Part shown: positions 13,001-49,900 of the stretch, piece by piece
Position numbering within the stretch: the stretch's first letter is position 1
How the letters are laid out: every line of letters starts with the position of its first letter
Assembly: GCA_029964075.1 (NCBI GenBank)
Contig: CM057135.1
Span: forward strand, 17,882,863 to 17,946,862
From: Patiria pectinifera
Lineage: Eukaryota; Echinodermata; Asteroidea; Valvatida; Asterinidae
DNA length: 64,000 bases
Direction of reading: 5' to 3'
The notes under the pieces: model-generated
Databases searched by the model: none
What the model saw: only the letters and a program-made list of their open reading frames with translations
Told to the model about the DNA's origin: nothing
Translations under genes and position numbers: made by a program

Positions 13001-14714
13001 CCAGCAAAAGTTTATGATTTTCTATCAGTTGGAAGCCACAAAAAAGAAATTAAAAGGAAAACATTTGACATATGGGTGTACCTTTATCCATCTGTTGAAG
13101 TCGTCTTCCAACTTTCGTGACTTCCTCTACTGCAGGTGGTGCCTGGTACACATTAGCGTTAACGTTGGCAGTGTGTCCCATATGCTTGTAAAATAAGGCA
13201 CGTTCACCCTCTGGAACCTCCATACTGGCATAGAGTGTACTTGCCCTGTGCCTCATTGATGTTGCTGTTAGCTTGTTGGGCTCACATACTTTAGCCATTG
13301 TGCACACCCGTTGCACACTTTGCCATCCAACTATATGGCTTTGGCTATAGTGTATGCGGGGGAACATATATTTGTTTGATGGGTCCACAGTTTCTGCTTC
13401 TCTGACCTTTGGGTCCGCCAGCGTTTTCATGGCCTGGATGGTATCTTTGGGTATCAGTACAGGGACAAGATGATTGTTCCCTTTCCCTGTTTGATATGTT
13501 AGTTTCATCTCTCCAAACAGCTCTCTGTCCTTTTGATCAACATGATCAAGATATTCTTGATTGATCCACCCTTCATTCAGGGCCTCATCCCATTCACCCA
13601 AAAGCAATCTTGCTGGCTCGCCACCTCGCCGAGCATTGAACAGGGTTATACGTGAAGCTGCCAGGTCTCTTAGTTGTATGAACTCATGTGGTGACCAGAA
13701 AAGGTATTCGTCCTGAAGCATGGTCTGCATCTCCTTGATTGTGTAATCTCGCAGAAGTGAGACATCTTCCTCCTGGGGAAGTTGATCAGGTTTCCGTAGT
13801 TTAACATGCCTATTTCTGTTCAAGGTATATACAGCATCCCCAAACACAAAATCTTGGTTCAGATTGAGGACACTGACGAACTTGTCAATGGAATCGGCAT
13901 ATTCATCATTGCCCTGAATCAAGTGATAGCCTTTCACAACTTTTGCCATTCTTTTCAGTAGGTACAATATGGCAATCTTCAGACCTGCCTTGATCTTGTT
14001 TTGGTTTTCTTGCGTCACATCTGACTTGGTCAGATTGACGATGGCTTCCTGGAGGTGGTCAAAGTTTTTACGGTGTAGCATATCTCCAGATGATTGAGCT
14101 GGACTTGACGTTTCTGCCTTTAATTCCCGAAATTCAAGGAACAGCGAAGCCATTCGCCTCATGTCAGACATTACTGATCTTCTGACCTCCAGCTGTTTGT
14201 CTTGTTTGCGTTTCATTTTGTCGAATAATCGTTGACCGAGCATGCAGATTTCTGGTCCTCCCTGCATATTTGTCCGATTTCATCATCCCGAAAGCCGGCA
14301 AGTATTTCCTCCTTCAACTGTTTGGTGACAAAATGAGGCCGGGGCTTGAGGAAAGATGTTGTCAATGGTGAACAACATTGGACTGAGTCTTTGTTGCAGT
14401 TCTTCTTGTGGTGCCAAAAGAACCTCCGACTGTAGAATCCATTACATCCACTGCATAAGACAATGCTTGTGCCTTTCTTTTGTTTTCTCTGTGTCATGAG
14501 GTTTGATGATTCTCCAGACTTAATGAGTTCTTTATTATGTTCATATATACCCTGCAGCCTGAGTTTCTGGAAGACCCGGTTGCGTTCCCTCTGTGGAAGC
14601 TTTCTCGCATACTTGATGGTTTCTGCGTCCTTGTGTTGGCCACCATATGCCGGTTCAGCTTTCTTTGCAACATCCCACAAAACGGGCAAGGTCTGTGTGG
14701 CTTTTTCCAGTGTT
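10072..14714 (-). CDS. Tyrosine-recombinase-like multi-exon gene (Crypton-type or related)
   Basis: Proposed exons: 14714-13082, 12576-12520, 11825-11736 and 10211 to about 10072; all joins keep frame and use GT..AG. The N-terminal part has a zinc-finger-like CSGCNGFY..H..C. The C-terminal half of exon 1 shows the order expected of a tyrosine recombinase: FNARRGGEPARL (first Arg), TSMRHRAST (His/Arg box), YKHMGHT and then a Tyr in NANVYQAP. The last exon encodes KYHRWTKDET, a Myb-like start seen at the C-terminus of related animal proteins. The frame is interrupted once in the large exon. No reverse transcriptase accompanies it, which favours a Crypton-like DNA element or a domesticated relative over DIRS. 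The true 3' end is uncertain. Confidence 0.6.
10467..10847. repeat. Miniature inverted-repeat element in an intron of the recombinase-like gene
   Basis: Inward-facing arms of about 40 bp share CTCCGGTTTCTGGTATG (10488-10505 and the complement at 10801-10818), each preceded by GGC and an A-rich run. The interior has no reading frame of note. It looks like a MITE of about 380 bp. The GC-rich 10,890-11,010 segment beyond it has no recognised function. Confidence 0.6.
11508..11600. repeat. TTCGG-rich simple repeat
   Basis: Several GGTTCGGTTC/TTGGTTCGG units in a short span. It is a degenerate simple repeat inside an intron. Confidence 0.5.
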
Positions 14715-16754: not shown

Positions 16755-17830
16755 TTAGAAGATATTAGTTCTGAAAAGAACTTGTCCTGCTTATTATCAA
16801 CTTTGCTAAGTAGTTTTTTTGTTCTGATAAGAACAGTCCTGCTGTAAGTTCTACACGAACTTGTCTTTGGTCTCAACGTTTCGACTAGCCTGCTCTAGTC
16901 ATCGTCAGGAGACTGAAGATAGTTGGAAATGCTACTTCCTTAAGTAGGATTTGTTAGGATTGGGAGTGCTTGCTGGGCATGCCCTGCTCGCTCGGGTGTG
17001 TCAGTTGGATGTGAGCCTTGGGCATTGTGTTGAGGGATGCCCGATGAGCGTCCTGCTTGCTCAACTGTGTCAGTTGGCTGTGAGCCTTGGGCATTGTGTT
17101 GAGGGATGCCCGCTGAGCGTCCTGCTCGCTCAGGTATGTCAGTTGGCTGTGAGCCACGGAAGTTGCAACTTGGAATAACTGAATGCCATATGTTGCTTAT
17201 GAAATAGCCGATATCTTGTGGGACAGTGTCATGTTTGTGGATCTCAATAGCTTATCTGATACGACGGGTGTACCAGTGTTTCTCTGGGGCTATGATTTCC
17301 GCTTGTTCCCAATCAACAACATGATCCAGATCAGCAGAGTGTTTGACAATTGTCGATTTGTCAAGTTCCCCTCTGCGGCCGGGAGCTATGTGTTCTTTAA
17401 GCCTGGTGGTGAGGTCTCTGCCGGTCTCGCCAATGTACACTTTGCCACACGAGCAAGGAATTCGGTAAACTCCTGCTGGACTTCTCGGTTGTGCTTGTCT
17501 TTGTGGGTGTACTTTCGTTTCGAGTTAGTTGTGAGTTCGGTAGTAGACCTTAATATTGGCTTCACGGAGGATTCGATGGATCTTGTGTGATGCATGGCCA
17601 ATATACGGAAGGACTGCAACCGGCATGTCGGGTGTGTTCAGGGTCTGAGACATGCTCGAATCCGGTGCGAGGCTGTGATTCTTTGGTCTATACCCATTGT
17701 CTCTTAGCACTTTATTGAGGTGCTTCAGTTCGGATTGTAGGTGTTCATCATCACTGATGATATGTGCCCTTCGAAGTAGGGTGCGGTTCACCGAGGTTTT
17801 CATATTCCTGAACATATTCCTTCATCCATG
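16755..17830 (-). mobile_element. Penelope-like retroelement 3' end with GIY-YIG nuclease
   Basis: On the minus strand VYIGETGRDLTTRLKEH followed by WEQAEIIAPEKHWYTRRI is the GIY-YIG endonuclease that ends Penelope-like polymerases. Upstream, to about 17815, is the linker region typical of the group. Downstream, to about 16755, is the tail ending in a DDD(S)RLVETLRPK-like motif. The reverse transcriptase itself is missing, so this is a 5'-truncated, broken fossil. Confidence 0.8.
16975..17160. repeat. Tandem repeat of about 70 bp in the Penelope-like tail
   Basis: Just under three copies, spaced 70 and 69 bp, are recognised by CAGTTGG at 17001, 17071 and 17140. They lie directly downstream of the GIY-YIG domain and, in the minus direction, keep a frame open, so they may have lengthened the encoded tail. 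Confidence 0.8.
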
Positions 17831-20885: not shown

Positions 20886-22152
20886 ATTTTACTTCACAAA
20901 CCCCAATACCACTGCACTCGTACTCAACAATGCCATCTGGGGTTGCTCCTAGGTGTGGAAAGTCTGGATGGATATAATCCACAGTCTGAAACATTAACGT
21001 TGATGTGTTCACTCTTGAGATGTTCCGTGTACATGTTTCGGGCCTCCTTTTCCTTGTTCTCCCCCCAGTCTGTTGCATCAGATGAAAACTGCAAGGTATG
21101 AGGATAACAGATACGTTTGACAAGACTTGTACTGGGTTTGTCCACCAATATATGCGTAGCTGCATGCATGTTGCTGGCAGTGACTCCTCCCACTCTGTGA
21201 GTGTGCCACAGCTTGGATTGAGTTTGTTCGCATGTGCTACATTGAAGGTTTGTATTCTGAGCTGGTGTGACCCTCAGTGTTGTCATGATTTCCGCTGCCT
21301 CATCCTGGAGACTGACGAGACTAGTCTGCAACTTGTCTGACTGTCTAAGCTGAAGAAGATTTTGAGGGAGGGAATCCGTCTTTGGCATGTACTTCTCAGC
21401 AAACTCGTCCTGAAGGCTGATGATGGCTGGTTTGCATTTTACTTTTAACGTCTGATTGCAAGCAGCAATACTTCTGAAGTACTGCGACTGTTCTTCTTCT
21501 GTGGTCTGTTTCACTTCTTTTCTTGGTGTTGCACATCTCTCTTTTAACTGTTATTGCCTTGATTTGGGATTACTGAAGTCCATATCCTTCACCATTTTAA
21601 ACTCAAATTTGTCCAGCTGCTTTGGAACAATCCACTGGCACAGCCTTGAGGTGCAACAATCCTGGTTTATTGTAGCATTGGTATTATGGAATACAGTTTC
21701 ATCAATGTAAAAGAGAAGAGCTGCAATGTGACTGCATACTTCTCCTAAACCTGCTTTTTATGTGCAGTGTCCGTACAACACAATCCCATCTGCTGTTGTA
21801 CACACCCAAGAGTAGCACGGTTATTTTGAGGGCTGCTGTGAATGACGAACTTTACCTGTGACAATAACTTTACTGTCATCACATTTCTTGGATCGAACAG
21901 TCGTAACCCGTCCGTCCACTGTATAAAAAAAGGATAAGCATCAGTTCCCTTGTAAGCTCTCATTTGCTCGCTGGTGTAAAAACTATTGGTTTTCACAAGG
22001 TAGAAAATTATGTCCCTGTATGTTACTTCCGGAAGATCTCGCCAATGTGTACTGTAGCCGCTTGTCTTTGAACCTTTGTTGAGATGTATAAAATCCTCCC
22101 CTAAGTCTGTGATCTTGCGAATGAACCGTCCATAACCTAGGGGATCTTCAAT
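20854..22152 (-). pseudogene. Decayed SWIM zinc finger plus YqaJ-type exonuclease gene
   Basis: Reading in the minus direction from a splice acceptor near 22,152, one meets EDPLGYGRFIRKITDLG, then NSFYTSEQMRAYKGTDAY, a Cys/His stretch ending GEVCSHIAALLFYIDE (SWIM-like), then QWIVPKQL, then TASNMHAATH and finally LGATPDGIVEYECSG with EVKCPY. The last two are the YqaJ nuclease core (D..ExK). The same SWIM+YqaJ order is known from multicopy invertebrate proteins. Reading is interrupted several times, so it is a relic. Its role in any mobile element is unproven. Confidence 0.75.
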
Positions 22153-22659
22153 CTGTTGACAGAAAACTGAAAATACACTTGCTTAATTTCGAGGAAAAAT
22201 TTGACCAACACAGCCAGTACAATAGATATTTGTATGACATCAATTTTTTAAAGCACCTCCAAACAAAATTTCAGGGGCATAATCAATTACATTTACTTGT
22301 TTTTCTTTCACAGAAACTTGTCCAACACTTAGATTTGCTCACGCATTACATATTGACAAAACATTTATACCCAATTTGATTTTTTATTTCATTGCACTTG
22401 TTCTATTTAAAACTTTACAATGCAGTGGCTATCGTAACGTCAAACCTCTATCTGGTTCTCTGACATATTTTTTAATGTTAGGATCTTTAACTGTCGGAAC
22501 CAGACTATCAACTGACTCTCCCTTTAAAAAAAATCCTCCAAAGCCACTGCCGATTACACAGTAGAAAATGAAATCCACTTTTAAAAAAAGCAATCTGGTT
22601 CAATGGGCAGTTACAAATCTGATTTGCAATGGTGTTTTTGCAATAATGATATGGGCTAG

Positions 22660-23120
22660 CACAAGTACTAGAACGTTGGGCAAAAAAAATGCCCAACTTA
22701 TTGCCCAACGTTGGTTCAATAGTCACCATGTACATCTATTGGGCAATTATTACCCAACGGTCGTTGGGCAATGTCTTTACTAAATAATTAAGCAAACGAA
22801 AATGACCCAAAAGTTGGTCATTTAGTACTTCCCAACTTTCGGTTGGCTTAGTTTATCCAAGGGTTGGTAATGATAGGTTTCCCATTTATTTGGCAGTAAA
22901 AGTTACACAATTGTTGGCTAATCATTTTGGCTAATTTGTTGGGCAAATTTCAGAACGTCTGCTTAATAGTTGGGAACTTGCTATGAAATACTTGGGCAAC
23001 TGCGTATCCAGTTTATGACCAATTGTTGGTAAATTCTCGTTCACTGCCATGATACGTTGGGCACAAATCTATTGAAAAAGCTCAATAGTTGGGACTGAAT
23101 CTAACCATAAAATGGGTATT
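22660..23120. repeat. Left subterminal motif array of the CACTA element
   Basis: Ten GTTGGG/CCCAAC hexamers and many more TTGG/CCAA cores occur in both orientations within 460 bp, several as TTGGGCAA. This corresponds to the subterminal repeats bound by TnpA in plant CACTA elements. The binding protein here would be the SAM-domain product (inference). Confidence 0.75.
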
Positions 23121-23299
23121 TCCTTTACAACAGTTGGTTAATAAATGACTTCACAAAAAAAGTTTTGTTTCTCCCTCTTCTTTTTATTAACAAACAATTT
23201 CTACTCAACAAGGCCTTAAAAACATACAGGTTTGTTTTTTCAAATTGAAGAAAAAAATATAAGGAAAGAATAAGTTGTTTCAAATAAATAACATGTTTT

Positions 23300-24600
23300 T
23301 TTTTTCTTTTTGTAAGAAACTTTAAATGTCTTGAGGAGATATGGCAGATGTTACAACATGTCTGTTTGAAAGCAAGTTGTAACATCCACTACTTATCCTC
23401 AAGACTTATCCACAAATTCCAAATAAAAAAACAGGGAAATCCTATTCGTTTCAGAAAAAAAACATTTAAACATCTACATCTTCGGTAAAACCTTAATGGT
23501 TTCTCAAATATAGAAAAACAATTGCTTTGAAACAGAAATGCTTTTATTTTTTCTGAATTTTGTTTGTAACAAACTCAAGCCAACTTCTTGAAGAGAAGTA
23601 ACAGATGTTACAAAATGATGGTTTAGGAAATTGAGTCGCAGGTTTCTTTTGCAAATAAAAAACAACAACAAAAAGTAACATGTTTGTTTTAAAAAAAATA
23701 TGGAATACTACTATTTCCCCTCAAGACTTTGACATTTTCTCACAATAGAACAGATCCAAGAAAATGGAATTTTCAAACAAAGTTGTAAAATCTTGTAAAG
23801 ACCAACTGCAATGGGGTCCCTCTATAAGGACAAACTCGCCTGGTATCCTAAAAATACAGGAACATACATGCTGTATGCACTGCATGTCTGCTGCAGTGTT
23901 TAGAGAACATTTCTGTGTGCACGGTAAGCCTGCAGGCCTCTCAGGCAAACAAGTCGCACTTCTTCTTCAAAAGAAAATATTGAGGACAAGTAGCACATGT
24001 TACAACATGTCTTTTGCAAAACAAAGTTGTAACATCTACTACTTATCCTCAAGACTTTTAAAGTTTCTAACAAATTTCAAATAGAAACAGGAAAAGCATA
24101 GGGTTTCAAAATCTACATCTTGCAAAGACCTTAATGGCTTCTCAAGTATAGAAAAACAATTTGCCTGGAAACAGAAATGTTTTTTTTTCTGGAATTTTTT
24201 TATAAGAAACTTGAGACACCTTTTTTGATGATAAGCAGCAGATGTTACAAAATGATTGTTTCGAAAATATAATGCAAAATGTACTTCACTCTTTCTTGCA
24301 AAAAGAAAACAACAGAATAGAGCATGCATGTTTAAAAAAAGTAATACTACTACTTCCCTCCAAGACTTTGAAAGTTTCTTACAAATAGAACAAATCCAAA
24401 AAAACTCATGTCTTAAACAAAGTTGTAAAATCTTGTAAAGACCAACTGCAATGGGGTCCCTCTATAAGGACAAATCGCCTGGTATCCTTAAAAAATACAG
24501 GAACATACATGCTGTATGCACTGCATGTCTGCTGCAGTGTTTAGAGAACATTTTTGTGTGCAAGGTAAGCACGTAGGCCTCTCAGGCAAGCATTGTCTCT
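23300..24600. repeat. Two-copy direct duplication (about 640 bp) including the end of the SAM gene
   Basis: TCTTGTAAAGACCAACTGCA occurs at 23,791 and 24,431, and about 150 bp after each are nearly identical. The second copy contains the stop codon of the SAM gene. The first is a downstream duplicate of the same exon end. Inside each unit are self-complementary stretches around GATGTTACAAC and GTTGTAACATC. It may supply alternative 3' ends. Confidence 0.75.
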
Positions 24601-27600
24601 GGTCTTGACACCTTCTTGTCTGTACACACACTTCTCAAAGAAAGTCCATACCCCCTGGCACTGCTGTTGGTACTCGAAATCCAGTATGTAGTGCGCTTTG
24701 TAGCACACATCAACTGCTTTCAGGATAGATGGCTGAGGTATGGCTTGCTTCTCAATGATGACGAAGGCATTTCTGGATTCCAGATGATTCGCACTGCTCA
24801 GTGACAGTACAAACGGCTGGGGATGGGTCTTTGGATCAACCTCCTTTAGGTACTGCGGCATGTTGATGATATCCTGCATAAAGAAAAAGAAGTTTATTGT
24901 TTTCTTGCTATCTAATCTTCTTGAAAAACATTCGTTCTCAACACTCCTTGCAGATGACATTTTTAATTCAAACTGAGAGCATTCATTTCAAAACCAAAAT
25001 ACCGAAGCTTACCTTATATGCACTCACACTGAATCCACTAATAAAGAAGTTTATATAAAATGTGTTCTAAATCTTCAAGAGTGGAAGCCGGACACTTAAA
25101 GGGAATGTACAACATTTGCCTTTGTTGTAATATTCAGAAATAAATGGATTGGAAAGAGTATGTTTCTTGCAAATATTGTTGAACTGACTTGTTTCACGTT
25201 TTGGGCTTGTGGAAAAAAAGCACAGAAACCCAATCATGTTCCTATAGTCTGGTTCCCTATCCCACTTTAAATACACACACTTGTTAAAACTGAGCAATTT
25301 ATAGACGTTGGGAAATTGTAAGGTCAGAGAATCAGCCTAGCAGGCTTGCACCCCTTCACAGGTGTGTAATTAATTGCAAAGAAAATGCGGAATAACTAAC
25401 TATGAAAAAGTAGGGGCAGTTTTTGAAGAAAAAAACCTGTTTTTTTCTAACGCTGGTCTTTAATTAAGAATACCCAAGAAACGGAGATAGGAAGAAAGTG
25501 TTGCTTGTTTTTAGAGAAATGTAACATCCACTTACCCGTTGTCTGTCAATGAAAAATCCAACTACATCTTTGATAGTGCTTCTCCCAGCAGCTCCTTTCT
25601 TGGAATTCCCCTCAAAGATGACAGGCACGATGATCAAAGCCAAAATGGACTTCTGATCTATGAGAAATGAAGGACAGAAAAATATTTGTAGAGCTAAAAA
25701 AAGAATGCACGTCTCCAGCCTTGGATTTGAGTCCAGTTATGGGCTGGTCATGCACTGTGGAAAGGTTTTGGGCTTAGGAGGGTGCACTGGGCAAAATAAA
25801 CACTTGTTATGATAAGTTGTCTATCCATTAATTCTGTCTGTGAAAGAAATAAACGCCACACCCATAACAGAGGTGAAGCCAAGTGGGGTGCACTGGTTTG
25901 CTAGTTCCGGTGGTGCTGGCACTTTCAAATATTCAGAGAGAAAAAAGGCAAAATGCTACAGGTGATTGGCAGGGGGTGGGGCCACTGCTGTCTGGACATT
26001 TCTTTGAATTGATGATTTTAAACTTGTGACCCTTACCTTTTGTCAATTTGTCCAGGATCATATCTTGTTGTAGCTCCAATGTCTCCTTCCACAAAGGGCA
26101 CATTCTTGTACCATACTCAATGATAGGGTCGACCATGGCACTCCATCTGTCGTACAGACTGTCAGCTGATAAGGGGTACGCCAAACGATAATCCTGCTCA
26201 ATCTACAGTGAAAATATGGGAGAAATATACATCAAGATAATTGTGTGTTTTAAAGGTCCTGCAAACTTTGTGTGCACTGTCCTCTATATCTACGTCCAAG
26301 GCAGGCCAGCATTTCCATGTTCTAGTGGATTTATTTGTTTTGTCTGGAAAAACTTGTAGGACTCGACTCAACTTGATGTTTGGTGACTCCAATACTGTTC
26401 CATGACTTGGAATATAGGCCTATAACATCTAGTCTGAGTCATCAACAGAAAACATCTTACCATGTTACTGTCCAATAGTCTTGGGAATTCCCGAAGAATC
26501 TCAGCCACAGTTCTCTCCTTATTCTTGATCCACTCTCTTCGGTAGCTAGCTGTCACTTCCATGAACTCCTGTACCTTGTCAGCAGGCTCCACATTATCTT
26601 TGAGCCATTCAATCTTGGACTGGTGATCCTGTGTTGTCTCAGCTGGTTGCTCTGCTTCACCAGTGGCAGCATCTGATGCTAGAATTACAATAGGGACGGG
26701 CAGAACAATTAACCTTTTGTTTTAATAGTCTCTTCACTTCCATTTTGTAATTTGTCACTTTTCTCTATCACACTAGTTCATTTTTGGCATCAGCCAAAAT
26801 AGTAATTGGAATCATAGTCTTGCTAAGGTGTTTTATGATATCTCGCGTGTATTATATTCCCTAAGAAAGATTTTTTGAACAAACATTATAATTGATTAAC
26901 CCTTAGTTTTTAAGGTTCTCGTGTCAAACTGACATTAATGATTAATTGTAAGACAGCACACACAATCCGAAAATTGTTAAAGGATCAGTGACAGAGAAAA
27001 CATGCATTGAAGCTAGATCAGAAGATTATGTCAAGGGTCATCAGAGGACAGATTCCAACCCCTCTCTTTTAAGATGCTGTAGAAGTGTGAGTTAATCCCA
27101 TTGACTGACCATACAGGAAATTGCTTACTTGATGTACATTCTTGATGTGGCTTTGCCTTTTGTACCATGTGCTTACGCACATAGCGTAGGTGCTCTTCTA
27201 AATATCCAGTTGCTGGACATCCTTTCGCTCCTTTGGTGTAAAATGCTTCCTGCATAACAATGAAAGTAGGTACCAGTATAAATATGTCAATATTTAAAGG
27301 GAAGATTTGCAAACATAAAAATTTCCATTCATCATTTGTCAACCCCGGTCAAAATTACAGATTTAGAAAGAGGTCAATCTCGGCATTACTCCTGACAATC
27401 GCATCACAATTATTCTCATTATTATATTCACTCACTATCAAGTTGGGCAATGGGATTTAAAACTGACAACTGTTTCATGCAAATAAATTGTTTTGAGCAT
27501 GTCATATTTTGAACACAATCTGCTTGATATAATGAAAAGGCACTTACGTATCCTGTAGTTCCCTGTGGGTCCTTCAAGCAAGGGGAAGCAGTAACTACAC

Positions 27601-30600
27601 TTTCAGCCAATGCATTTTTTTCAAATGCACCCGGGCTATATAAAACAAAAAATGGAAATATTCAGTTTTGGTTCGCACGATTAGGCTTCTTTAAATTGCA
27701 GCACGCTAAAATATGACATGACATTAATTCAGTCATTTTGCTAAGGATGTAGGATTTAATTTGTTAAACTTTATACATTCCACATTTTTGATGGTTCATG
27801 TAATTCTAAATAAGAGGGAGGGTGGGAAAAAAAACATTATTAGCAACACCAGGGTCTTCGTGTGCACTCCTGCAGCATCAAATAAGGAGTTAGGGTAATG
27901 GTTTGGAATCATTAAAAATAGGCCCTCTAAGGTCTATTAGGTTTATACTTACTTTTTGCCATAACGGGCAATCATATATCCCACCAAAATCTTGACCATG
28001 TTGTGCTTGTCACGTTTGGTGAGGAGTGCAGTCTTCTCAATGTTGTCAATAACACTCCTTCCATCTGCTGACCCATTCAGAATCTTCTTAGCATCCTAAA
28101 ATGAAGGGAATAACACATGATCAGCTTAATAGCATTAAAAACCTCAGAAATGACCCTGCAAAAAGATAACATGAACTTCTCAGACACTTTAACAATATGA
28201 TCAAAATTGTGAACGAGATATTTTATAAATGACTGATCATTATTGTAAATATCAAAGTGTTTAAGATGTGCACATGGAGAAGTTAACAGTGGTAATGTAG
28301 TTTCTGTCATTCAATTTAAATAAATCAACGCTGACGCCTCCAAAATCAATTTATTATTAATAAGAAATAGTGAGACAATGCCATCAGTTTTAAAGAGATA
28401 TTGTTGACTTGCACTCGCAAAGATTTTATTTAGAAGTATTTTGATTACCCGGTACATTACACATACCATGGAGAAACCATGCCCATGCATACACAACGAT
28501 CAGTTAAATACAAAAAAAATATACAAATTTTACATATTACAATAGAAATTGAATCAAACACTTACAAAGAGCATAGCCTTTTGTCTCTTAAGAGGTGGAG
28601 ATGTCCCTGGCATCTGATGTGACAGTGACGGTGAACTGCCTGACTCTGAAGCACCTGATGGGCCTGGGATACTCTCTCCTACACACAGGATGGAATCATC
28701 GTCGGTAAAGTCAGAAGCCGTTGATGAACTGAACAGGGACTGGGAGTCAAAAAGGGGATGCTGCTGAGGTCCAAAGTCAAACACTTGTACTGGCAGTTGT
28801 ATCGGTACTGATTGCTGTGGCTGAAACTTAAAGAAAAATACAGGCACATACATGTCTTAAATACATTCACAAAAATTCACATTTTTTTTGGGGGGGGGGG
28901 GAGGTTTCATCTAATTCCCAAACATCACTTACACGTTTAACCAGCGTTTTATGCAAACTCAATCCTTTTAAAAAAAATTTCACGTAAAGAAAAGTGTTTT
29001 TTGCTTAATTGTTGGGGTGTTTGTATGTTTGTTTGGTATTTTATCTGGGGGGAGGGGGGCGTTACATTGAAAAAAACACAAGAAGGCCACTTTGAAGTTA
29101 ATTTTTAAAGTCACTATCATGTGTACAAACCATACCTTTTATACAATGTTGAATGGAGTTATGATGTACCAGGATAGGTCGTCTTTGTTATGGCACTTTG
29201 TTACATGAAATGGTCGGCTGGCTCGGAGATCTTGTGGGCGTTTGATGATACATTTTGGCTCTTTTGATTCTGACACAGCATAGGCCTGCAGGTGTCGATT
29301 GTAATATCGTGTTTGCCACATGTGCAAGACAAAGTAGATGCTGTTCTGAATTTCCATGATGTAATTCACCTTTGCATACTGTGGTCCGTCATCATCCCAG
29401 TCAACAAGCATCATACAGTTTGGTTTGTATTCATAGGTTTGGATACACACGCTCCCAGAAAACGTCAGCATGTCTTCCATATTACATCCAAGGGAAGCAC
29501 ATACATCAACTGCATCATCCAAAGATGAAACCTGAGCAGGTACTTGGTCTCTGATTTCAGTGTCACACTGTAATGGCCTTCTCAGCAGAAAGTTGCAGCT
29601 CTGTTGTTGCTGATGCCTGTCGGAAACAGTTTTGGCTATGTTTTTGTAGTTATTACAGACACGGGCCCATCGTTTTAGTGGTTTATGCTTAGCTTCTTTC
29701 CACATACTTGAATATTGTGCGAGAGGCCCCAGGAGTCTTGTGAGGCGGGGATAGTGAAGTAGAAAGTGATGCTTGGGAATAAGATGACCCCCAGGAAAGA
29801 GCTCCAAATACAGCTGATGATGGTCTCTTATTAATGCCTTTAATACGTATGTACCAGCAATACTAATTGATGGAGCTACAACTATTTTGTATATATCCAG
29901 AAGCAACAGAAACATTTCCCAGACATCTGATTCCTCGCTAATAAGGTCACCAATGATAAGTGGAAGATACAGAGCTAAACACTTTGATTGAGCTGATTTT
30001 TGACCACTAGAACCCCATGGATTTGTAAAAGCTGATTGTTGTATGGGACTTGGTTGTTTTTTTTTATCTACCGACCCGTAGCTGAACGAAGACAGCCGAT
30101 TGTTAACTGTGCCAAGGGTAAAACATCCTTTTTCAATGAGAACTTTCAGGGTAAGTTTCATTTCCAGTGGAATGATGCCCTCCAAAAAGTCATGCATGAC
30201 ATCTACAGCAGAGTTTTCACTGACATGGAATCCTGTCAGCTTATTTAATTCGGAGGATCGCCGGATACCTGTCTCTGACACATTATTCACAAGAACATCT
30301 GCATCTACACTATCCTTGGTTCGAAGAAGCGCAACATCTTCAACAAGCTGTGTTCTAGTAGTCTCCCTTGGAGCTTTGCAAAATCGACAGGGAAAATTGG
30401 CAATGAAGCTTCCAACAAAACCCAGTACCTCATGAAGTCCTAGGTTGTCACCAATTGCTTGAAAAAGGACAGGTCTAACAGATCCCGTGTACTCTTCACA
30501 TGATATCTTGAGACCTTGTTCTTGCATGTCCTCAAAATCTTTCACAATTGCTGACAGTATTTTGTCGATTCCATACTTTGCAATCTCTGTTCTTTTTCCA

Positions 30601-33600
30601 CATGCAGCCAACAAAATGTTACTGAGTGAAGCTTGGAACTGAAGCGGAAGACACAACAGACTAATATAGAATCCAGCTAGCTTATTTGTGCCTTCTTTTT
30701 GACCCGAGGGGATTACCTGTTTCATAATCGTCGCAGTACAGCAATATTGGAATGACAATGTTGTTTTGTGCTGAAAATTTAGTTTTGTAGTAACTGCCAT
30801 CGAGATATGTTCTCAACAGACAATCATCCTGAGAGGGTTGCTGATTCAGGATTGCTGTCATGATTCCTGGTTGCTCCAAGTGTCTTTTTATCGTCTGAGT
30901 GATGGGAACGTACTGGAAAGTGTCATTTTTCAGGGTTTGACGAACACCTCCAGATGAGCTATCACCTTGTGAAACGAACGATTGACCCAGAACTTTTTCT
31001 TCAGGGCTGACGAGATATCCTTTTTCTCTGAAGTACTTATCCTGGTTGTGCTGAGATCTAAGTTCATTAAATGTTTTTTGTACAAGATCATACTCATCAA
31101 ACACTTGTCCTAGCTTATTGACATCTACTTCCGCTAACTGCATATTCCTTCGAACCTCCTGCATTGTAAACTGAAACCTTTTGTGCATGTGATTAAACAC
31201 CACTTTGATCAACTCTTCAACTTCAAGTATCACTTTCTGAATGCTGGAATAAGGCATACTTGATGCTCTCATGCTTGCTATGAAATATGAAACAGATTCA
31301 AAGAGCTCATCTTCACCTGTCCACTCATCAATGTCATCATGTGGCTCATCAAACTCATCATTCTGCTCCATTTCAATTTCTGAATCAGATGTTTCCTGTG
31401 GCATATTAGACCTATATATAGCTGCTGCAGTGTCTGTGTGCTCTGCCAAAATGTGGCGCCTATATGATGACAGATGGTGAAATGTTGCCAGACAACCATC
31501 TTGTCTGCAAATAACAATGGTGGAAGTGCCAGAATGCACACCATGGATATATTTCAAATGGTTGAATAAGTCTTTGATGCCACCAGAGATTTCAATCAAA
31601 CATTTGTAGCACAGCATTATCCCTGATCACAAGTGCCTTAGGCCAAACAAAAAAATGGTGTGTTTACGGTAACGGCCTGAAAAAAATCCAGGTAGGTAGG
31701 TAGGAAAATAATTTTATTTTGTAATTTTTTTTTTCATTTCAGTTCTGCATGCCCATGCGTGTTCTTTCGCAAAAAAAAAAGTATAAAACCACTATTCAAG
31801 CATTCAAGATATTCAATTGATACATTTCAATCCAAATTAATTTGTATCGTCGGCCAGGGTTCTCCCCAGGATTTTTTTCAAACATGTGGGGGAAGATTTG
31901 CTGTGATTCAACAACCCGAAAATGTTTGAACTTTAGAAGCTCTCTGGTGCATTTTAGAGCAAATCTGGGGGTCTTTATCTTAAGATTTGTCCTTGAAATT
32001 CAGAGGAGATCTTGTAGGTTATTAATATTTTTGTAATTAAAGAAAAAAAATCAAAATTGTTAACTTAAAAAAAAAATAAACATTTCACAACCTGTGTTTC
32101 ATTGCTTCCTAACTAGAAAAGTATGCATTACATTTACATGTAAGTTTCAAATTAAGAAATTAAGGTGGAGAAAAAAAACAACTTTTGCTTCCAATTACAT
32201 GCCTTTCAAAATAGCGTCAGTAGGTCGAAAAATTATTTCGCCAATTTTTTGGGGTGCTGATTAATGGAGCATCATTCGTACTAATCATAGAGCAAGGAAT
32301 CATGTTTATTTTGTGCCTGGATTATTTTCATTTGCGCCACGAAAATGATCAAGACTGGCTATCGGGGGGTATGGTGTAAGCGCAGGATAGTATGCGCATG
32401 CGTACAAGTGCAAGTCCGTACCCCCCGCGGCGCGCTCCGAGCGATCGAACCCGAAAATGACTGCGATATCAGCGCGCGTGCTCGTTTCAAGTGTTAGGTT
32501 GGCTCAGTGCGGAAAGGGCATATTTTTCATCATTTTGGCCTAAAAACAGACAGAATCCACCGATGTTTGTTTGGTGCACATAACGTGAGTATGTCATGAG
32601 GTATTGTACGGAGTTTAGGGGTAAACTGTGCAGCGGTTCTGTGGGAAATGGCTTATTTGGAATGGACGTTTTTGTACTTAATTAGTGTTTTGTATTTTAT
32701 TCTGACTCTATGAGGCTCCGCTCACGCGGAGCCTCATAGTTCTAGGAGTACTCACGGCCCACGTGGCCGAAAATCTTGCACTACTGCAGAAACACACTAC
32801 GATGTTTCGCCACAAGTTCGAGCTTTGCAATCTCGTCATTTTAATGGAAAACACATACACAGAAAGTAAAGATCACGTTCTGTGAATTAATTCGCAGAAA
32901 TTCTCTTTCTCCAGCGATGTTTGTTTGGTAATATTTTTACGATCCAACTTCGGCCCACTACATTATCATGCTGTATGATACGAAGTATGGACCGGAGAGA
33001 GGCAGTAGTCACTGGTTCCGGTCCTTCATCATAGCATTGATTCCGTTAGCTGGCGAAGGGAACCAGTGTACCATGCTGTATGCTAGCTAGCTGCTGATGG
33101 TCGACAGAACACGTCATTGTGTGCATTTTGATCACACATGCATCGGAAAACATGATTTTGGTCAAGATTTTGAAATAATGGCGTATGTAACGATCAAATT
33201 GTGCATTTTAATGACGTGTATGATAATTATATTGTGCGTATCAGGGGCTAAAAAATGTGATCGGCATTTTTTTGTCGGCGTATCGGGCAGATACGCAGTA
33301 CGCACGTTTGTATGTGGGGAGAACCATGCCGTCCGTCGGCCAGCCAGGCGTACCCCGATGCGTTTGTGCAAAAATAATCGTACTTCGTAGTTTGAGAGTT
33401 CAAGTTTTGAGATCGTCGCGATTTTCGCACGTTTAACACAGGTATGTTTGTGTCAAATCATGGTCAGATTCAAGTGTGGAAAATGTTTTTTGTTCGTGGC
33501 AAATAATTAAAAGTACTTGAAATGTTTGAAATTTGTCAATTATCAACCTTCAAAATGGCAATAAAAAGTTTGAGGTCGGCAATTTGGCCGAAAAAATTCC

Positions 33601-34678
33601 AGGTCGGTCGGGTTACCGTAAACACACCATTTTTTTTGTTCGGCCTTATCACAAATACTACCAACTCACATGATTCTTCCACTTTTTAACAAACTTCACC
33701 CGTACACCAACTTTCGGAATAAGTTGCACTATATCTGCTTCTGTCAGCAATCGAAGGGCCATCATGTCTATGCCATTATCTGTAAGAAAAAAAAAGAGCA
33801 TTAAGTTAGTCGCCGGGTAGTTTTAATAACATGTATGAATAGCTACACTTTATACAGACTGTTTTGGTTATTTTTTTAAATGTTATTCTTTGTTTGGTTT
33901 AGTTTTGTGTATCATTATTTTTCTATAGGGATATTGTTCCCAAATGTTGGAGAATAATCATCCAACAATTTCCTAAGAAAATATGAGCTTAGCCAAATGT
34001 TGGGTAGAAGGAAGCATATATTCCCAATATTGAGGGACAATAGGACTGGCACCACAATTTATGGGCAGACCCCCGTTATTTGGGCAAAATAGTAATAAAG
34101 AATTGGGAGATAAAAGTACAAAATACTCAACATTTTAGAAAAGCAAACAAACATACCCAATTTTTAAGGAGAATGGGAACAAATGCCCAATGTTTGGACA
34201 TTAGGAGCATGCATATTCCCAATCTTTGGGAAAGAGGGGCCTAAATTACCATGCCTTGCACATTATTAATACTTTAGCTCAGCTCATTATATCCAAATTG
34301 ATTTATTATCAAAATGTTAGGAATAATATATCACAGGTAATGATTCTTGAGTTACGGTGAAGAGAATGATGAGGCTATGGAAAACGATAGACCTGGCATC
34401 ACTCATGCTTAACGTAGGCCTATATCGATTATGGACTCAGCTTGCACTTTGCATTAAGAACTGCAACCCTGGGCTAGCCGCACATTAGCAAACATTTGCT
34501 TTCAGCATAGAGCTTTCAGACAGGCACATGCACACGTAAATTCATGTACCATAAGTTATCTTTATAACAGTAAGACCTATATTCTGATACATGCTGCAAA
34601 ATTCTCACCTATAAACACGTCCATTAGGGTGCTAACGCCCCACTTCTCCAGCAAGCCTAGTACTTCGTGATCTGCCAT
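24541..34678 (-). CDS. SAM-domain protein, SAMD3-like family; TnpA-analogue candidate, intact
   Basis: Exons: 34678-34609, 33779-33670, 28826-28566, 28095-27953, 27635-27548, 27249-27129, 26678-26461, 26202-26037, 25657-25536, 24873-24541. All nine introns are GT..AG, the exon lengths add to 1,632 bp, and the frame is open for 543 residues. Residues 1-60 form a SAM domain (LLEKWGVSTLMDVFI, then LRLLTEADIVQLIPKVGVRV), followed by a Gln/Ser/Pro-rich linker. The rest follows SAMD3-like proteins: KHNMVKILVGYMIARYGK, CLKDPQGTTGY, a coiled acidic/basic stretch, FPRLLDSNMIEQDY, and a C-terminal ILKAVDVCYKAHYILDF with VWTFFEKCVY. The intactness of a ten-exon frame inside a transposon implies recent selection. 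Proposed role: nuclear DNA-binding or oligomerising accessory factor for transposition. The role is inference. Confidence 0.85.
29139..31617 (-). CDS. TNP2-like (CACTA) transposase nested in intron 2 of the SAM gene
   Basis: The first part encodes two C2H2-like fingers (CYKC..H..H and CRQDGC..H..H), an acidic region, then VIPILLYCDDYETGNPLGS. The second encodes FQASLSNILLA, a CRFCKAPR cysteine pair, DVMHDFLEGIIPLEMKL and PKHHFLLHYPRLTRLLGPL with KHKPLKRW, a motif order known from animal EnSpm and related TNP2 transposases. The two parts are in different frames that meet at a short A run near 30,705 (GGGTCAAAAAG). Dropping one A gives a continuous match, so it is a one-base insertion, an assembly slip or a +1 shift site. 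A splice acceptor (GATCAG) lies just before the ATG. Confidence 0.75.
31635..33648. mobile_element. 2-kb non-autonomous DNA element inserted in the SAM gene intron
   Basis: The ends are inverted copies sharing ATGGTGTGTTTACGGTAAC next to GGCC(A/G)AACAAAAAAA. TCACAAGT lies just left and TCACAAAT just right, an 8-bp target duplication with one difference, as expected for hAT-type elements. The interior has no transposase. It holds a perfect 14-bp-arm hairpin at 32,708-32,739 (CTATGAGGCTCCGC / complement). Insertion lies 21 bp past the donor of SAM exon 2 and 17 bp before the transposase ATG. Confidence 0.7.
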
Positions 34679-35083
34679 TTCGACTCGACTGTGCATGTGC
34701 AGTGCAGTAACGTAATAACGTGGCCGTGCGCGCGCGTGTGCACGCCGTACGTACGTTGCAACGTTGTCCTCTAATGCGCGTGCGCACGGTGATTGAATTC
34801 CCAACAATTGGAAACCGTAACCCGATCCATTGCAATCATGCCCATCTGCTGAGATTATTATCCCACTTTCTACCCAACACTTCGTGGTTGGATCAAGCAG
34901 TGTAATAATGCATATTAATTGGGCAATGTTTATCCAACTAACCTTACTAAAAAAAACATCCATCGTTGGTCAATTTTTTTACTTGCCCAACCCCAAAATT
35001 TACTAAATTGTTGAGCAAAAATTCACCAACAATTTGCAAACGGAGTTTACCCAGTGTTATTTTGCCCAGCATTTTTAACAGTG
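33920..35083. repeat. Right subterminal motif array of the CACTA element
   Basis: TTCCCAA, TTGGGCAA, GTTGGG and CCCAAC units in both orientations surround SAM exon 1 (34,609-34,678). The promoter of the SAM gene must lie within or beside this array. Binding of the encoded protein here could therefore both mark the end and repress its own promoter, as TnpA does in maize (inference). Confidence 0.6.
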
Positions 35084-35086
35084 TAG

Positions 35087-42879: not shown

Positions 42880-45800
42880 TTTTTAAAGGAGAGATCCATG
42901 AGCTATTTAAAAAGGATGAAAGATCCCTTAGGAAATCAAAGGGTTAGGATGGTCGGGATGAGAAGGGGAACTGAGCCACCCCTTCCCCATGAAGTATCCC
43001 ACATGACCTGCGTCTCAAAAGCCTCTCCTAACCAAACTCTTTCTGCTTGGCTTCATGCGCCGATCCCTGTTTCAAGCCGATGGCAAAGGTGTGGAAGGCG
43101 AGATTCTTGCGCCTGAAAACCAGATCGCTCCGGGCAGGTGGGGGGTCGTTATCCATGGGAGGTAGCCCACCTAGGAGAAGGAAAACTCTGATTTCAAACC
43201 CCCATGTCCAGGGTGATGGGACGTACAACCAGGGGCAGGTAGGGCTCCGAAGCCTTGGTCGGCAACCTAATTAGGAGAAGGTCACTCCAAATTAAAACCC
43301 GACGGTTCTGGGAGAGGAGTTGCGACCACCCATAACTACATTCGCATTGAAAAGCCAGAAACATGAGTATGAAAACTACAGCAAATCGTATACTGCCAGC
43401 AGTCGGAGTCTGCAGGAGAACAGCGGAAGTGACACGTGCACGCTCGTCTTGCGAGCAGTATGACAGCGTCCACTCAAACCCTGAGGATTCCTCGAGGAGG
43501 GGGCGGCTGACAAGTGCAGGAGATCTGAAGCGCTTACTAAGGAGCAAGAGGAGCTTGACTCTCGCCACCATGAACGTTCGAACGATCAGGGAGGTTTCGA
43601 GAGCCAAGGAGCTAGCAGAGGCGATGAGGAAGCAGACAGTCGCCGTGTGTGGAGTGCCAGGAGCACAGGAGGGTGCATAAAGAAGACAAGAAGGGGGTTT
43701 GGACATTACAATGATAGATGAGTACCAACTCATCACGGCATCAGCATTGAGGAATGAGGCTTAGGCGGCAACCGGTGGGGTTGGACTCATGCTTAACAAG
43801 GAGGCGCAGAAGACGATCATCTGTGCAACTCGGACGTCCAACAGAGTCATCCTTGCTTCTTTCAGAAGCAATCCAATCCTGACCATCGTGGTTGCCTACG
43901 CGCCAACACTCGATGTGAAGAGCGAGGAGAAGGATAATTTCTACAGCGACCTCAGGCACGCAGTAGAGGCCGTCCCAGTCCATAACTTCCTGTGCATTCT
44001 TGGCGATTTCAACGCTAGAATCGGACAGGAGGACGCTACATTCACCTATCATCAAGGAAAAACTAACGACAATGGGGCTAGGATGATAGAGCCGATGGAG
44101 TACTACTCCCTCCTTGCAAGGAACACAATGTTCGAGAAGAGAAGGGGTCGTCTGTGGTCGTGGCTGTCACCAAACGAATCGAAGGCTCAGATAGACTTCA
44201 TCCTGACGTGGCGAAAGTGGCGGAGCAGCGTGGTCGACTCAGGTGCCTACAACACCTTTGCATCTGTGGGGTCTGATCATCGTGTGGTGGCGATAAAGGT
44301 GCGCCTTTGCCACCGAGCGCCTCAAAAGGCAACCAAGAGAAAGGTCCAGTACGAGTGGTGGAGGCTGATGGGTAAGAGCGAGCTGCAGGAGCAGCAACCA
44401 ATCGCTATGGAAAGTTCGTGAAAGCTAACGAGGATGCAGCAGAGGAGTGTATGGACAAGGTGCCCAAGAGGAGGAAGAAGTCTAGGGTAGCAGCGGACCC
44501 TCGAGTTATCAGATCCAGGGAAGACATGGTAGCAGCGTACAGTAAGCTACTCAAGCACCGTTGTGAAACTAATCGGGAAGAGTACAACAACAAGAAGAAG
44601 GTTTTATACCTAACCTATGATGCCATCGAAGAGGAGGAGCTTGCCAACAAGATAAAAAAAGTGGAGGAAGCTCATCTCAACCACAAGCACAGCAAGAGCT
44701 GGAAGCTGATCAAAGAGATCAATGGTACAGGTTCCGCCAGGCTCGCTCAAATCAAGGGCGAGTCCGATGAAGAGCGAGTCAAGGCATGGTACAACCATTT
44801 CAAAAACCTTCTTGGGGCTGAACCAGTGGTGCTGGATGTATAGTCTGAAGTTGAGCGCGTTTTCGGAGACCTAGACATCGAGGATGTGCCATTCACAAGG
44901 GAAGAGTATGACAATGCAAAAAAATCACTGAAGGGATCAATGGAGCACCCACAACATCATCCCTGTTCCAAAATCCGGGGACCTCACATCCACCGACAAC
45001 TACCGGGGCATCAGCCTGAGCTCTGTCATGACAAAAACATTTAACCGGATGGTTCTCAACCGTATCCGCCCTGCTCTAGACCCTCTCCTAAGAACAGCTC
45101 AAAATGGTTTTCGCCAAAAAAGGACAACTGTGGGTCAAATCATTGCACTTCGGAGGATCATCGAGGGCGTCAAGAGCAAGAATCTTCCTGCTGTGATGAC
45201 GTTCATAGACTTCAAAAAGGCTTTTGACTCAATCCACAGTGGGAAGATGCTCGATATCCTTAGTTCATATGGGATACCAAAGAAGCTTGTGGAAACTGTG
45301 GCAGCATCCTACTCTCGCACATGGGCCAGGGTCACCACACCTGATGGAACTACCGAACCGTTTAAAATCTCTGCAGGAGTGCTACAGGGCGATACCCTCG
45401 CTCCTTATCTCTTCATCATTGTGCTGGATTATACTTTGAGGAGGGCCATTGACGGGAGAGAGGTGGAGTTAGGTTTCACCTTGACACAGCGCAAGAGCCG
45501 GCGAGTGCCTCCAGTAACAGTCACCGATCTGGACTTCGCCGATGACATAGTAGTGATCTCAAACACTGTGGAACAGGCTCGTACCCTTTTCCTCTCGGTG
45601 GAGGAAGAATGTTTGAAGATGGGATTACATCTCAACACTGGGAAGACCAAAGTGCTGGCATGCAACACGACTGACGCTACCGTCCACACCAGAGACGGCA
45701 CGCTGTTGAAGATCGTGTCCGATTTCAAATATCTTGGAGCGTATGTCGACTCAAGCGGAAAAGACATCAACACCAGACGAGGATTGGCGTGGTCAGCACT

Positions 45801-45985
45801 TCACAGCATGAAAAAGGTATGGACGTCAGCCATCAGTACAAAGCTCAAAGATCGCTCTTCATCTCCACGATTGAGTCCGTCCTACTCTATGGTGCAGAGA
45901 CGTGGACCCTCACAACCAGGGAGGAGAAGTCACTGGATGGATGCTACACTCGCATGTTCACGGCCGTTTCATCCCCATAGACCGT
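42880..45985 (+). mobile_element. LINE (non-LTR retrotransposon) with AP endonuclease and reverse transcriptase, defective
   Basis: 5' leader to about 43,560, then endonuclease start LATMNVRTIREVSRA. From 43,789 the endonuclease continues with LGDFNARIGQ, KAQIDFIL and GSDHRVV. A coiled linker (44,418-44,840) leads to the polymerase (45,028-45,985): FIDFKKAFDS (motif A), GVLQGDTLAPYLF (B), LDFADDIVV (C, catalytic Asp pair), LHLNTGKTK (D), DFKYLG (E), then SVLLYGAETWTLT. The frame is interrupted by stops near 43,678, 43,760 and 44,419 and by a TAG at 44,841. Between KKSLKG (44,930) and NIIPVPKSGD (44,955) about 35 residues expected of the family are missing. No 3' UTR tail was seen. Clade not assigned with certainty. 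Confidence 0.85.
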
Positions 45986-46034
45986 GCGTAAATAAACTCT
46001 CTGCTGTTTGTTTGTTTTTGTTTCGCTACCCAAT

Positions 46035-46100
46035 AATGAAGCGTGACGTCACGCAGCCAGTCAAGAAAAACATGGCGGCGCGCCGCCAGGAATTCCGTCG
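46035..46100. promoter_or_regulatory. Promoter-like patch with CRE palindrome and YY1-like site
   Basis: GCGTGACGTCACGC is a perfect 14-bp palindrome around a full CRE. It is followed within 40 bp by AACATGGCGGCGCGCCGCC, a YY1-like site inside a CpG palindrome. Such pairs mark many animal promoters. Which transcript it serves is unknown; the RAG1-like gene starts 880 bp downstream. Confidence 0.35.
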
Positions 46101-46532
46101 CTGATAAAATCAAATAATGACAAGAAATCAACCCTCAGTGTCCTAAATATTATATCCTCCATCAAATATCGATGTACAAATACATTTTCTATAAGTTGCG
46201 ATTATCAAATAAAAAAATGTAAATAAAATAAGGGTCTGTGTCATGATTATTTGATGAAAAATTATGACGGAACTATAATGTCCGTCATGTTTCCATCTCG
46301 AAGTAAAATTCCTGTTTATTGTTTTTTGTTTTTTTTTATCTCTACAAGAAGTCAATTATTTTGAGAAAAACTAAATGTTTCGTACTCTTAACTCACTTTT
46401 GTGTGTGGGCAATGGCTCGAATTCCTAATATAATCGAGTTTGGGGGAACTAAATATGGGTCGTCTGCTTTTGAGAGTGTACGCAAAGCCCGCGAAATACG
46501 AGTTGTCAGATAGCCAGTATATTCGTGCAGGA

Positions 46533-46867: not shown

Positions 46868-46977
46868 CCACCAAATATTTTATCAACACAAGATACAGAA
46901 GCAAAATGATGATCGACGCACAGTTCGCACTTGGTTGATCAGGTATTTTATTTATTATATAACTTAGCTGCAGTACA

Positions 46978-49900
46978 ATGTTCCGAGCTTTAACTTTTGA
47001 CTATCACAAAAACGTACTTACAAAATTATGTAGAGTTTGTGGCGCAAGAACAGACATAAACAAAGGCTATATATTACCAACCTTGTCTGCAGACAATCGT
47101 AAGGAAATACTGGCTGTATTTGACATTAACACTTGGAGCGATAACTGTGATCAACATCCTAAAGCACTTTGTGAAAAGTGTGCAAGAAAGATAAGGCACT
47201 ACAAGGCAAAAACACAGGATTACAAAAGTGACAGTGTTGCATATGAACATATTGACTGGATAAAGCACCAGAGATCTGGAAACTGTACAATTTGTGAGAA
47301 ATTTCTACTGTCTTCAAGGCCAGGTCGTCCAAAAAAGTGTCAACGAGTCATTGGAAAATCATCCTCTTCTTCTGAAGTTTTGCCTTTTGCCATAACCTCT
47401 CAGACCAGCAATATTTTCACCAACATTGTTAATACTACAATTGAGTCAGATCCCCACCTGGAGATACTTGGAAGAGAGGATGAACACTCCTTATTTACCT
47501 GTCCAATCTGTCTCTGTTTATTGGCTTCACCATGTGTACAGTCTCCATGTGAACATAACTTTTGTGTCAACTGTTTAACAAAGTACTTTCAGTTCAAGAA
47601 CTTGTCTCTGGTACCATGTCCAGTGTGTAAAGCAAGTTTCAATTTCAGAGAAGTATCTCTTAGCTCTCGTATTCTTACAGTGCAGCTGAACAATTTGAAT
47701 TTGATTTGTTCCAAGTGTAGCAAAATAGGAAAACTCCGTCAACTCACAGCACATGATTGTTAACTTTGTTCTACTCCATCAACAAAGGGAAGAGGCACTT
47801 GTTTTTCAAGTACGAATAGGCCTAGTGTAGATAATAGTACAAATCAACAAGAGTCATCCATATCAAATGCTGCTAGGATCCTACGAGAAGAGGCCCTCAA
47901 ACACCCAAAGGGACAGCCAATCCCTTATGAAATAGAAAGAGCGACAGACAGATGGACATGGTTGAAATTACAACAGTCAAACAGAGCAGCTACTCTAAAC
48001 ACAGGCGGACGGGTAAAATTAGTAAGATCATAATTAACAAGTGAAAAATAATGGTATCAATATCCCTCTAGCTCAATCCATTAAATAAATAATATTACAA
48101 CTGAAACTATTCTAAATGACCATCTCACAATTAAAACCTAAATTGCACTCTTCCTGACAAATCAAGTTTAACCTTTGTATTGTAACATTAAAATTTTGAA
48201 ATACATATCATGTGCCTTAACTCTACACAATAAAAAACGATCCGATTGTTACAAGTTTATTGATTTTGCCGCACATCCCCTCTCTAAAATTTACAGTTAC
48301 CTGGGCCCAATTTCTTGGCACTGTTAACTGTTGGCTACAAATCGGTGCTTACGACAGCAGAAAATTGAAAGTTTAAGCGTATTTTATGGGTTAAAAAGGA
48401 AATGTTGCTGATGAGCATGCAGTAAGCAGTGCCATGAAATTGGGCCAAGATACTTGTTTAACTTAATATTTACTTATTTACATATACATGTATATACAAT
48501 ATATATACAATACAATCAATATAGCTCATTGTACTTTTTTTACAATTATGGTGTATTTTTTATGTTGAATTTTAGCCAGCACATGTTCATCAAGTCTCAT
48601 CCCCTGCCCCGCAAAGTACAAAGGAACAATGCTCAGCACCAAAAAAACCTGAAAGCACACCGAGTCCCCCGTCATGTAAACCGACTGTGCCACCAGTAAA
48701 CCGGTCTCTGGCGATGATGCGGGACTGCAATCTTGCATGGGAGCAATTGAGAAAACTGCGGAGGTATTTTACATTACATTTTTGAAAATTATTAACGCTT
48801 TTGATTAAAACATTTTATGAGATGAATTAAATGTTCATAATAATTTATAACCAAAACAGATATGCAGGTCCCGCCATCGCATCAGAACAATCAATGAGGA
48901 CACAGCAGAAACGTCTTCTGAAAGACTACCTTGAGGGAGAACTCGTAAAACTCATGTTCCCAAGTGCCAAGTCTGATGGGTCTCATGGTTTTAGGGTAGA
49001 ATGGTGCCATATGTCACTGTGAACAACCTCAGCATGATGGTGCTGGATTATCTGGACGGACTTGAGGAGTAAGTACTGAACCTGTAAATCAAACAATATG
49101 TTATAAATTTCAATTTAAATGGAAAAAATGTGGCATTTACAAATATATACATGTTTTTTTTTACAGGTGCAATTCCCTGACCTGGCGTAGTGGTGTCATC
49201 CCACCAAACGAAATTTGGGTCGCAATTGGAGGTGACAAAGGTGGCTCTTCGTTTAAGATGGCTTATCAAATAGTTAACGTGAACCATCCAAACAGCCTCC
49301 AAAACACGGTGGTATTCGCGTGCTTTGAGGGGAGCGACACATCTCAAAATTTGAAGAGAACACTTCCCAAAATCATAAGCCAGATCACCACGCTTTCTAA
49401 ACAACAATGGAGGTGAGCAAAAATTTAAAAAGGAAAACGTATATGTTACTTAATCTTAAACATAAAAAAAATTAAAATTACCACGTTTATTGCTCAAAAG
49501 CTTGTATATGCATATTATTTGTGAAACTCTTATTCTCTGCTGTTTCTTTCTTCCCTGAACATGATGAACAGAGGCCGAACGATTCGCTTGCTGTGCTTCG
49601 GTGATTATGAACTCCTGTCCAAGTTGTATGGCACAAATGGACCTAATGGTACTTTTGTCTTTTTTTGGTTAGGTTTGTAATAATGTTGTCCTGGTTATGC
49701 ATAGCTTTGCAAAGTTACAAGCACTGTGTACTCAGTACTCTATGAGGTTTGCAGAAAAAATCTAGGCGAGGGGCAACATTAGATAATTGATTGGCTTTGT
49801 CATTTTTTTTCCTAGCACGATACTGCCGTATTTACTGCTTAGCCAGTAAGGATACAATGCAGGTGCCCATAGCTGAGAGGGGTTCTTCCACCGAGGGAAA

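Follow-up and report, generated by a model that had tools for sequence, protein, structure and literature searches.

On contig CM057135.1 of the Patiria pectinifera assembly GCA_029964075.1, a stretch of 64,000 nucleotides (forward-strand positions 17,882,863 to 17,946,862; hereafter the window, in which all positions are counted) contains at 22660-35083 a candidate DNA transposon of the EnSpm/CACTA type, 12.4 kb long or about 10.4 kb without a later nested insertion. Two genes share its minus strand and lie within one motif-bearing pair of ends (Table 1): a ten-exon gene whose spliced product would begin with a SAM-like domain, and the frame of a DDE transposase that sits in intron 2 of this gene. 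Our analysis supports an architecture in which a multi-exon gene houses the transposase in an intron, both being read from one strand inside one set of ends; the exon junctions themselves are predicted. An earlier annotation made from the same DNA (the original prediction) had noted the ends, the motif arrays and the SAM-gene exons on both sides of the transposase, and re-analysis confirms these observations.

Table 1. Features of the candidate element and its target site, in window coordinates (strand "." where a feature has none).
Feature	Position	Strand	Remark
Target duplication TAG, left copy	22657-22659	.	matched to right copy
Left end: CAC terminus and TTGGGCAA cluster, both orientations	22660-23160	.	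9 sites, at most 1 mismatch
Imperfect tandem duplication, takes in exon 10 tail	23331-24592	.	copies 23331-23951 and 23980-24592; 78%
SAM gene exon 10, stop	24541-24873	-	
SAM gene exon 9	25536-25657	-	
SAM gene exon 8	26037-26202	-	
SAM gene exon 7	26461-26678	-	
SAM gene exon 6	27129-27249	-	
SAM gene exon 5	27548-27635	-	
SAM gene exon 4	27953-28095	-	
SAM gene exon 3	28566-28826	-	
Transposase, C-terminal piece (open; contains second D, CxxC, DVMH, HxxxH and E)	29139-30812	-	
Transposase, N-terminal piece (open from ATG; contains first D of DDE)	30685-31617	-	frame-shifted relative to C-terminal piece
Nested 2,005-bp element with terminal inverted repeats, target duplication TTA, in intron 2	31641-33645	.	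matching ends
SAM gene exon 2, completes SAM-like domain	33670-33779	-	
Motif cluster 3, weaker, intron 1	33920-34300	.	3 sites vs 0.28 expected
SAM gene exon 1, start codon	34609-34678	-	
Right end: GTG terminus and motif cluster, 5' of SAM gene exon 1	34780-35083	.	5 sites, at most 1 mismatch
Target duplication TAG, right copy	35084-35086	.	matched to left copy

A spliced gene around a transposase frame

Read on the minus strand from 34678 to 24541, ten exons form one uninterrupted frame for a protein of 543 amino acids and flank the transposase in the same direction, just as the original prediction had it. All nine predicted introns start with a GTRAG donor and end at an AG acceptor; GTRAG occurs at 19 of the 695 GT dinucleotides on the minus strand of the element, a tally that is not blind since the splice sites were picked by eye. 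A blind exon-chain finder run on the minus strand returned a chain of 1,857 nt, not necessarily the hand-built one, against a maximum of 1,239 nt and a mean of 706 nt in 30 Markov shuffles; of ten further samples, drawn from other stretches and strands of the window, one contained a longer chain (2,370 nt, presumably another gene). Downstream of exon 10, towards the left end, possible polyadenylation signals lie at 23548, 23188 and 22890. Separately, the tail of exon 10 has been copied into the left part of the element by the tandem duplication listed in Table 1.

The SAM-like region exists only on joining exon 1 to exon 2. Within the first 60 residues of the spliced product, the SAM_1 profile aligns to residues 6-54 (E 0.012, 16.4 bits, model positions 8-57 of 64), and the runner-up Pfam family has an E-value of 0.097. 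Searched against the PDB, the same 60 residues retrieve 35 sequences at E of 10 or below, among which four rows are SAM domains with E-values of 0.09-0.6 (ANKS6, 0.087; ANKS3, 0.49 and 0.54; BICC1, 0.62), aligned from near the domain start. Together, these matches give us fair, if not full, confidence that residues 6-54 form a SAM domain. The full 543-residue protein gave no SAM match and nothing useful in either Pfam or the PDB, and an NCBIfam profile search with three proteins gave no match. The rest of the protein may resemble SAMD3-like proteins.

The transposase is split over two overlapping frames, 31617-30685 and 30812-29142, in which the catalytic-type residues follow one another as first D (30732), second D (30449), CRFC (30389), HFLLH (29768) and E (29696). 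This order is the one known from EnSpm/CMC enzymes, whose superfamily is defined by CAC..GTG ends and a DDE transposase with C(2)C and H(3-4)H between the second D and the E (PMC12730594); in our case it is read from motif order across two frames and not from a profile alignment. The transposase also carries VDVMHDFLEG, one residue off the box A motif given for eumetazoan TRC elements (PMC1636069). A single-sequence fold of a 557-residue transposase frame has a mean predicted local distance difference test (pLDDT) score of 36, too low to use. A TNP2-like gene had been proposed at 29.1-31.6 kb; the open frames lie at this position, they are frameshifted in this copy, a point that had escaped the original prediction, and they find no Transposase_21 match. 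The label "intact" fits the SAM gene, which is open, and does not fit the transposase of this copy.

Intron 2 also contains the nested element, likewise overlooked in the original prediction, whose inverted ends start with GGCC and match at 94% over 35 bp, with 25 bp perfect; from these ends and its target duplication it is presumably PIF/Harbinger-like. With this insertion set aside, the ATG of the transposase follows exon 2 after 44 nt and its stop precedes exon 3 by 312 nt. Exon 1 can be joined in frame with the transposase at an acceptor at 31623, one of four exon-acceptor joins tried. Exons 1 and 2 joined to the same acceptor run into a stop after one residue, in which case translation of the transposase would have to start anew at its own ATG.

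The ends and their motif clusters

The left terminus reads TAG followed by CACAAG from 22660 and the right terminus reads GTG, ending at 35083, followed by TAG, which bears out the claim of CAC-starting ends with TAG on both outer sides. The element thus has CAC..GTG termini and a 3-bp target-site duplication (TSD), a matching TSD having been a precondition for the pairs considered. With a score of 9.5, this outer pair ranks first in inverted similarity among the six CAC...GTG pairs of the end regions that have a matching TSD, and among 842 TSD-matched pairs spanning 10-14 kb in the whole window only 0.24% (two, including the outer pair) reach that score. Free local alignment of both 500-bp ends scored 27, equal to the best of 200 shuffles (27; shuffle mean 19.8).

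The same short motif is clustered at both ends, as expected for EnSpm/CACTA elements and as the original prediction had claimed. Allowing at most one mismatch, TTGGGCAA has 64 sites in the window, 47 of them outside the three clusters. The left cluster holds nine sites where 0.37 are expected (p 3e-10), the right cluster five where 0.23 are expected (p 4e-6), and the weaker cluster in intron 1 three (p 3e-3); these p-values are exploratory, the motif and the ranges having been picked post hoc. Relative to the SAM gene, the left cluster sits past its 3' end and the right cluster past exon 1. A count of the words TTGGG, GTTGG, CCCAA and CCAAC, which average 1.0 per 250 bp over 256 bins, places the top five bins (starting at 22501, 22751, 23001, 34001 and 34751) all at the three clusters; bins holding five words are also present outside them, at 13251 and 17001. 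In the 362 bp of intron 2 that remain outside the transposase, TTGGGCAA is absent, which is uninformative as about 0.27 sites are expected.

Possible working and alternative explanations

How might such an element work? We consider it probable that 22660-35083 is one copy of an EnSpm/CACTA element with En/Spm-like splicing of two genes, in which the SAM protein serves as a TnpA-like end-binding partner of the transposase. We infer that both genes would be transcribed as one minus-strand unit, from one promoter region behind the motif array of the right end. Joining exons 1-10 would give the SAM-domain protein, and retention of intron 2, or splicing of exon 1 to an acceptor before the transposase, would give the DDE transposase. 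The SAM protein would have its binding sites in the TTGGGCAA clusters of the two ends, polymerisation of its SAM domain would probably pair these ends, and the promoter might be regulated as by TnpA in maize En/Spm; the transposase would cut at CAC...GTG, leaving a 3-bp duplication. SAM domains commonly polymerise, a property that would be useful to a protein covering the arrays of the two ends and drawing these ends to each other. The earlier interpretation is supported in its two-gene architecture, all the more by the short distance of 44 nt between exon 2 and the transposase ATG, and by analogy the SAM protein may reasonably be regarded as the counterpart of TnpA.

Several observations weigh against this reading. 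The evidence comes from a single copy, and in this copy the two transposase pieces lie in different frames, so that the frame is broken. The terminal inverted repeat is weak, with CAC followed only by an offset TGGGCAAAA, and the score of the outer pair (9.5) is exceeded by that of one unrelated TSD-matched pair from another part of the window (10.0). The acceptor at 31623 that would link exon 1 to the transposase has a poor pyrimidine tract, and codon scores trained on the transposase chose the annotated frame in six of the ten exons, with 3.3 expected by chance. The SAM_1 match lies under the gathering score of 23 bits, and in the PDB search designed ankyrin proteins have the lowest E-values and the most rows, through a short repeat-like stretch. 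Finally, Pfam Transposase_21 (PF02992) matches neither transposase piece nor two sub-pieces, and NCBIfam matches neither piece. Transposase_21 is defined largely on plant proteins, so its missing match makes the CACTA claim less probable without overturning it. The class assignment is made from motif order, ends and layout.

Could the SAM gene instead be a host gene whose intron 2 was struck by an independent CACTA transposon, with flanking clusters that are unrelated or belong to separate short elements? Transposons are common in host introns, the outer inverted repeat is weak, and intron 2 itself contains 11 TSD-matched CAC...GTG pairs, the best scoring 9.0 vs 9.5 for the outer pair. However, the right ends of the five of these 11 pairs that were listed all fall inside the nested element, and the 44 nt between exon 2 and the transposase ATG are too short for an end and a promoter of the transposon's own, which makes a chance insertion unlikely. 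The same motif is moreover clustered on either side of the SAM gene, beyond exon 1 and beyond exon 10. In the three ranges searched, none of the clusters has a TSD-matched CAC...GTG pair that would mark it as a short element of its own, though decayed ends would escape detection. Judged from this one copy, it is unlikely that the two genes are accidental neighbours, and we give the independent-insertion account only a small probability.

The SAM gene might also have been captured by the element or domesticated from it, having a host function and only a historical link to transposition. An open SAM gene beside a frameshifted transposase fits this account; CACTA elements are known to capture host gene fragments (PMC8195511), and acquired genes ride on other transposons, such as TET/JBP in fungi (PMC12730594). 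In a captured gene, however, neither the packing of the transposase between exons 2 and 3 nor the position of exon 1 behind the motif array of the terminus would be expected, and we regard capture or domestication as unlikely. Alternatively, exons 1 and 2 could be the 5' end of the transposase and exons 3-10 a separate downstream gene, the two being adjacent transposon genes. The frame of exon 3 does run upstream through an in-frame ATG (open reading frame 28554-28856), yet the end of exon 2, with its GTGAGT donor, and the start of exon 3, with its AG acceptor, are both in phase 0, and the succession of a SAM domain, a linker and a C-terminal part may be that of SAMD3-like proteins; we regard this division into two genes as very improbable.

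Relatives, neighbouring sequence and significance

The layout that we favour for the starfish element, a transposase frame in the intron of a multi-exon gene, is of the same kind as that of maize En/Spm, in which the TnpD frame lies in intron 1 of the 11-exon tnpA gene, the products arise by alternative splicing and TNPA binds subterminal repeats (PMC2613891). Antirrhinum Tam1 and soybean Tgmt* have a parallel organisation, Tgmt* with CACTA ends, a 3-bp TSD and clustered subterminal motifs (PMC2613891). Here, in contrast, the predicted product of splicing carries a SAM-like domain, intron 2 houses the transposase, and the ends are CAC but not CACTA, with a poor inverted repeat. TnpA-type proteins are reported to show little similarity from element to element (PMC2613891), so an unrelated protein in the place of TnpA fits the kind.

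Among animal and fungal relatives of CACTA elements, SmTRC1 and the TRC group share the CxxC and DxMH motifs with the present transposase, and their spliced transcripts yield a Transposase_21 protein together with other proteins (PMC1636069). Unlike the present element, TRC elements have ends starting with CCC and 2-bp duplications in the three species characterised, and their other proteins are reported to lack detectable conservation; its abstract and results make no mention of a SAM domain (PMC1636069). Fungal EnSpm elements that carry TET/JBP have CAC..GTG ends, a 3-bp TSD, a C(2)C and H(3-4)H DDE transposase and an extra gene, as here, but their extra gene encodes a dioxygenase and not a SAM protein (PMC12730594). 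Two CACTA families of Capsaspora make 3-bp duplications (PMC4007536), and CACTA elements in animals are cited by PMC4158355. None of the literature matches listed, in a search whose scope left out subscription papers and Repbase, pairs a SAM-domain protein with a CACTA element; SAMD3 appears solely in a table in the excerpt of PMC10298005.

In sequence collections of viruses, bacteria and archaea, no relatives of the SAM protein or the transposase were found. Viral contigs gave no pattern match to the C-terminal transposase piece and no stretch matching the degenerate pattern DVMHD.LEG; the one pattern match to the SAM protein there was not a relative by tblastn. Four DVMHD.LEG stretches in genome contigs were taken as chance (tblastn gave short stretches only, best E 0.066), and a tblastn match of the SAM protein at window positions 5992-5915 (E 0.17) was likewise judged to be chance.

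Further features of the window lie outside the element. On the plus strand, 43765-46104 is a non-LTR retrotransposon with a reverse transcriptase (PF00078, E 6e-31), preceded by a frame that looks endonuclease-like by eye. A 266-residue frame at 46963-47763 (plus strand) encodes a RING finger (zf-C3HC4) that passes the profile cut-off, matches the RAG1 importin-binding family below threshold (E 4e-4, 20.4 bits vs 23.3), and is possibly a RAG1-like N-terminus. On the minus strand, a YqaJ-like exonuclease domain (PF09588, E 2e-6) lies just left of the element at 20924-21550, and a GIY-YIG endonuclease domain (E 1e-5) at 17252-17524 is perhaps, at a guess, a Penelope-like remnant.

The interleaved two-gene plan is known from plant CACTA elements, where TnpA-type partners vary by element; what would be new here is a SAM-like protein as the putative partner. 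More tentatively, and with some doubt on our side, there could be a widespread animal EnSpm lineage in which a SAM-domain end-binder is spliced around the transposase, the fish and invertebrate genes named "SAMD3-like" being its second gene or domesticated descendants. If an animal SAM-based counterpart of TnpA does exist, the interleaved two-gene plan would be older than its proteins, or reinvented more often than they were; and if annotated SAMD3-like genes of animals are transposon genes, this would bear on gene counts, on orthology and on claims of gene-family expansion.

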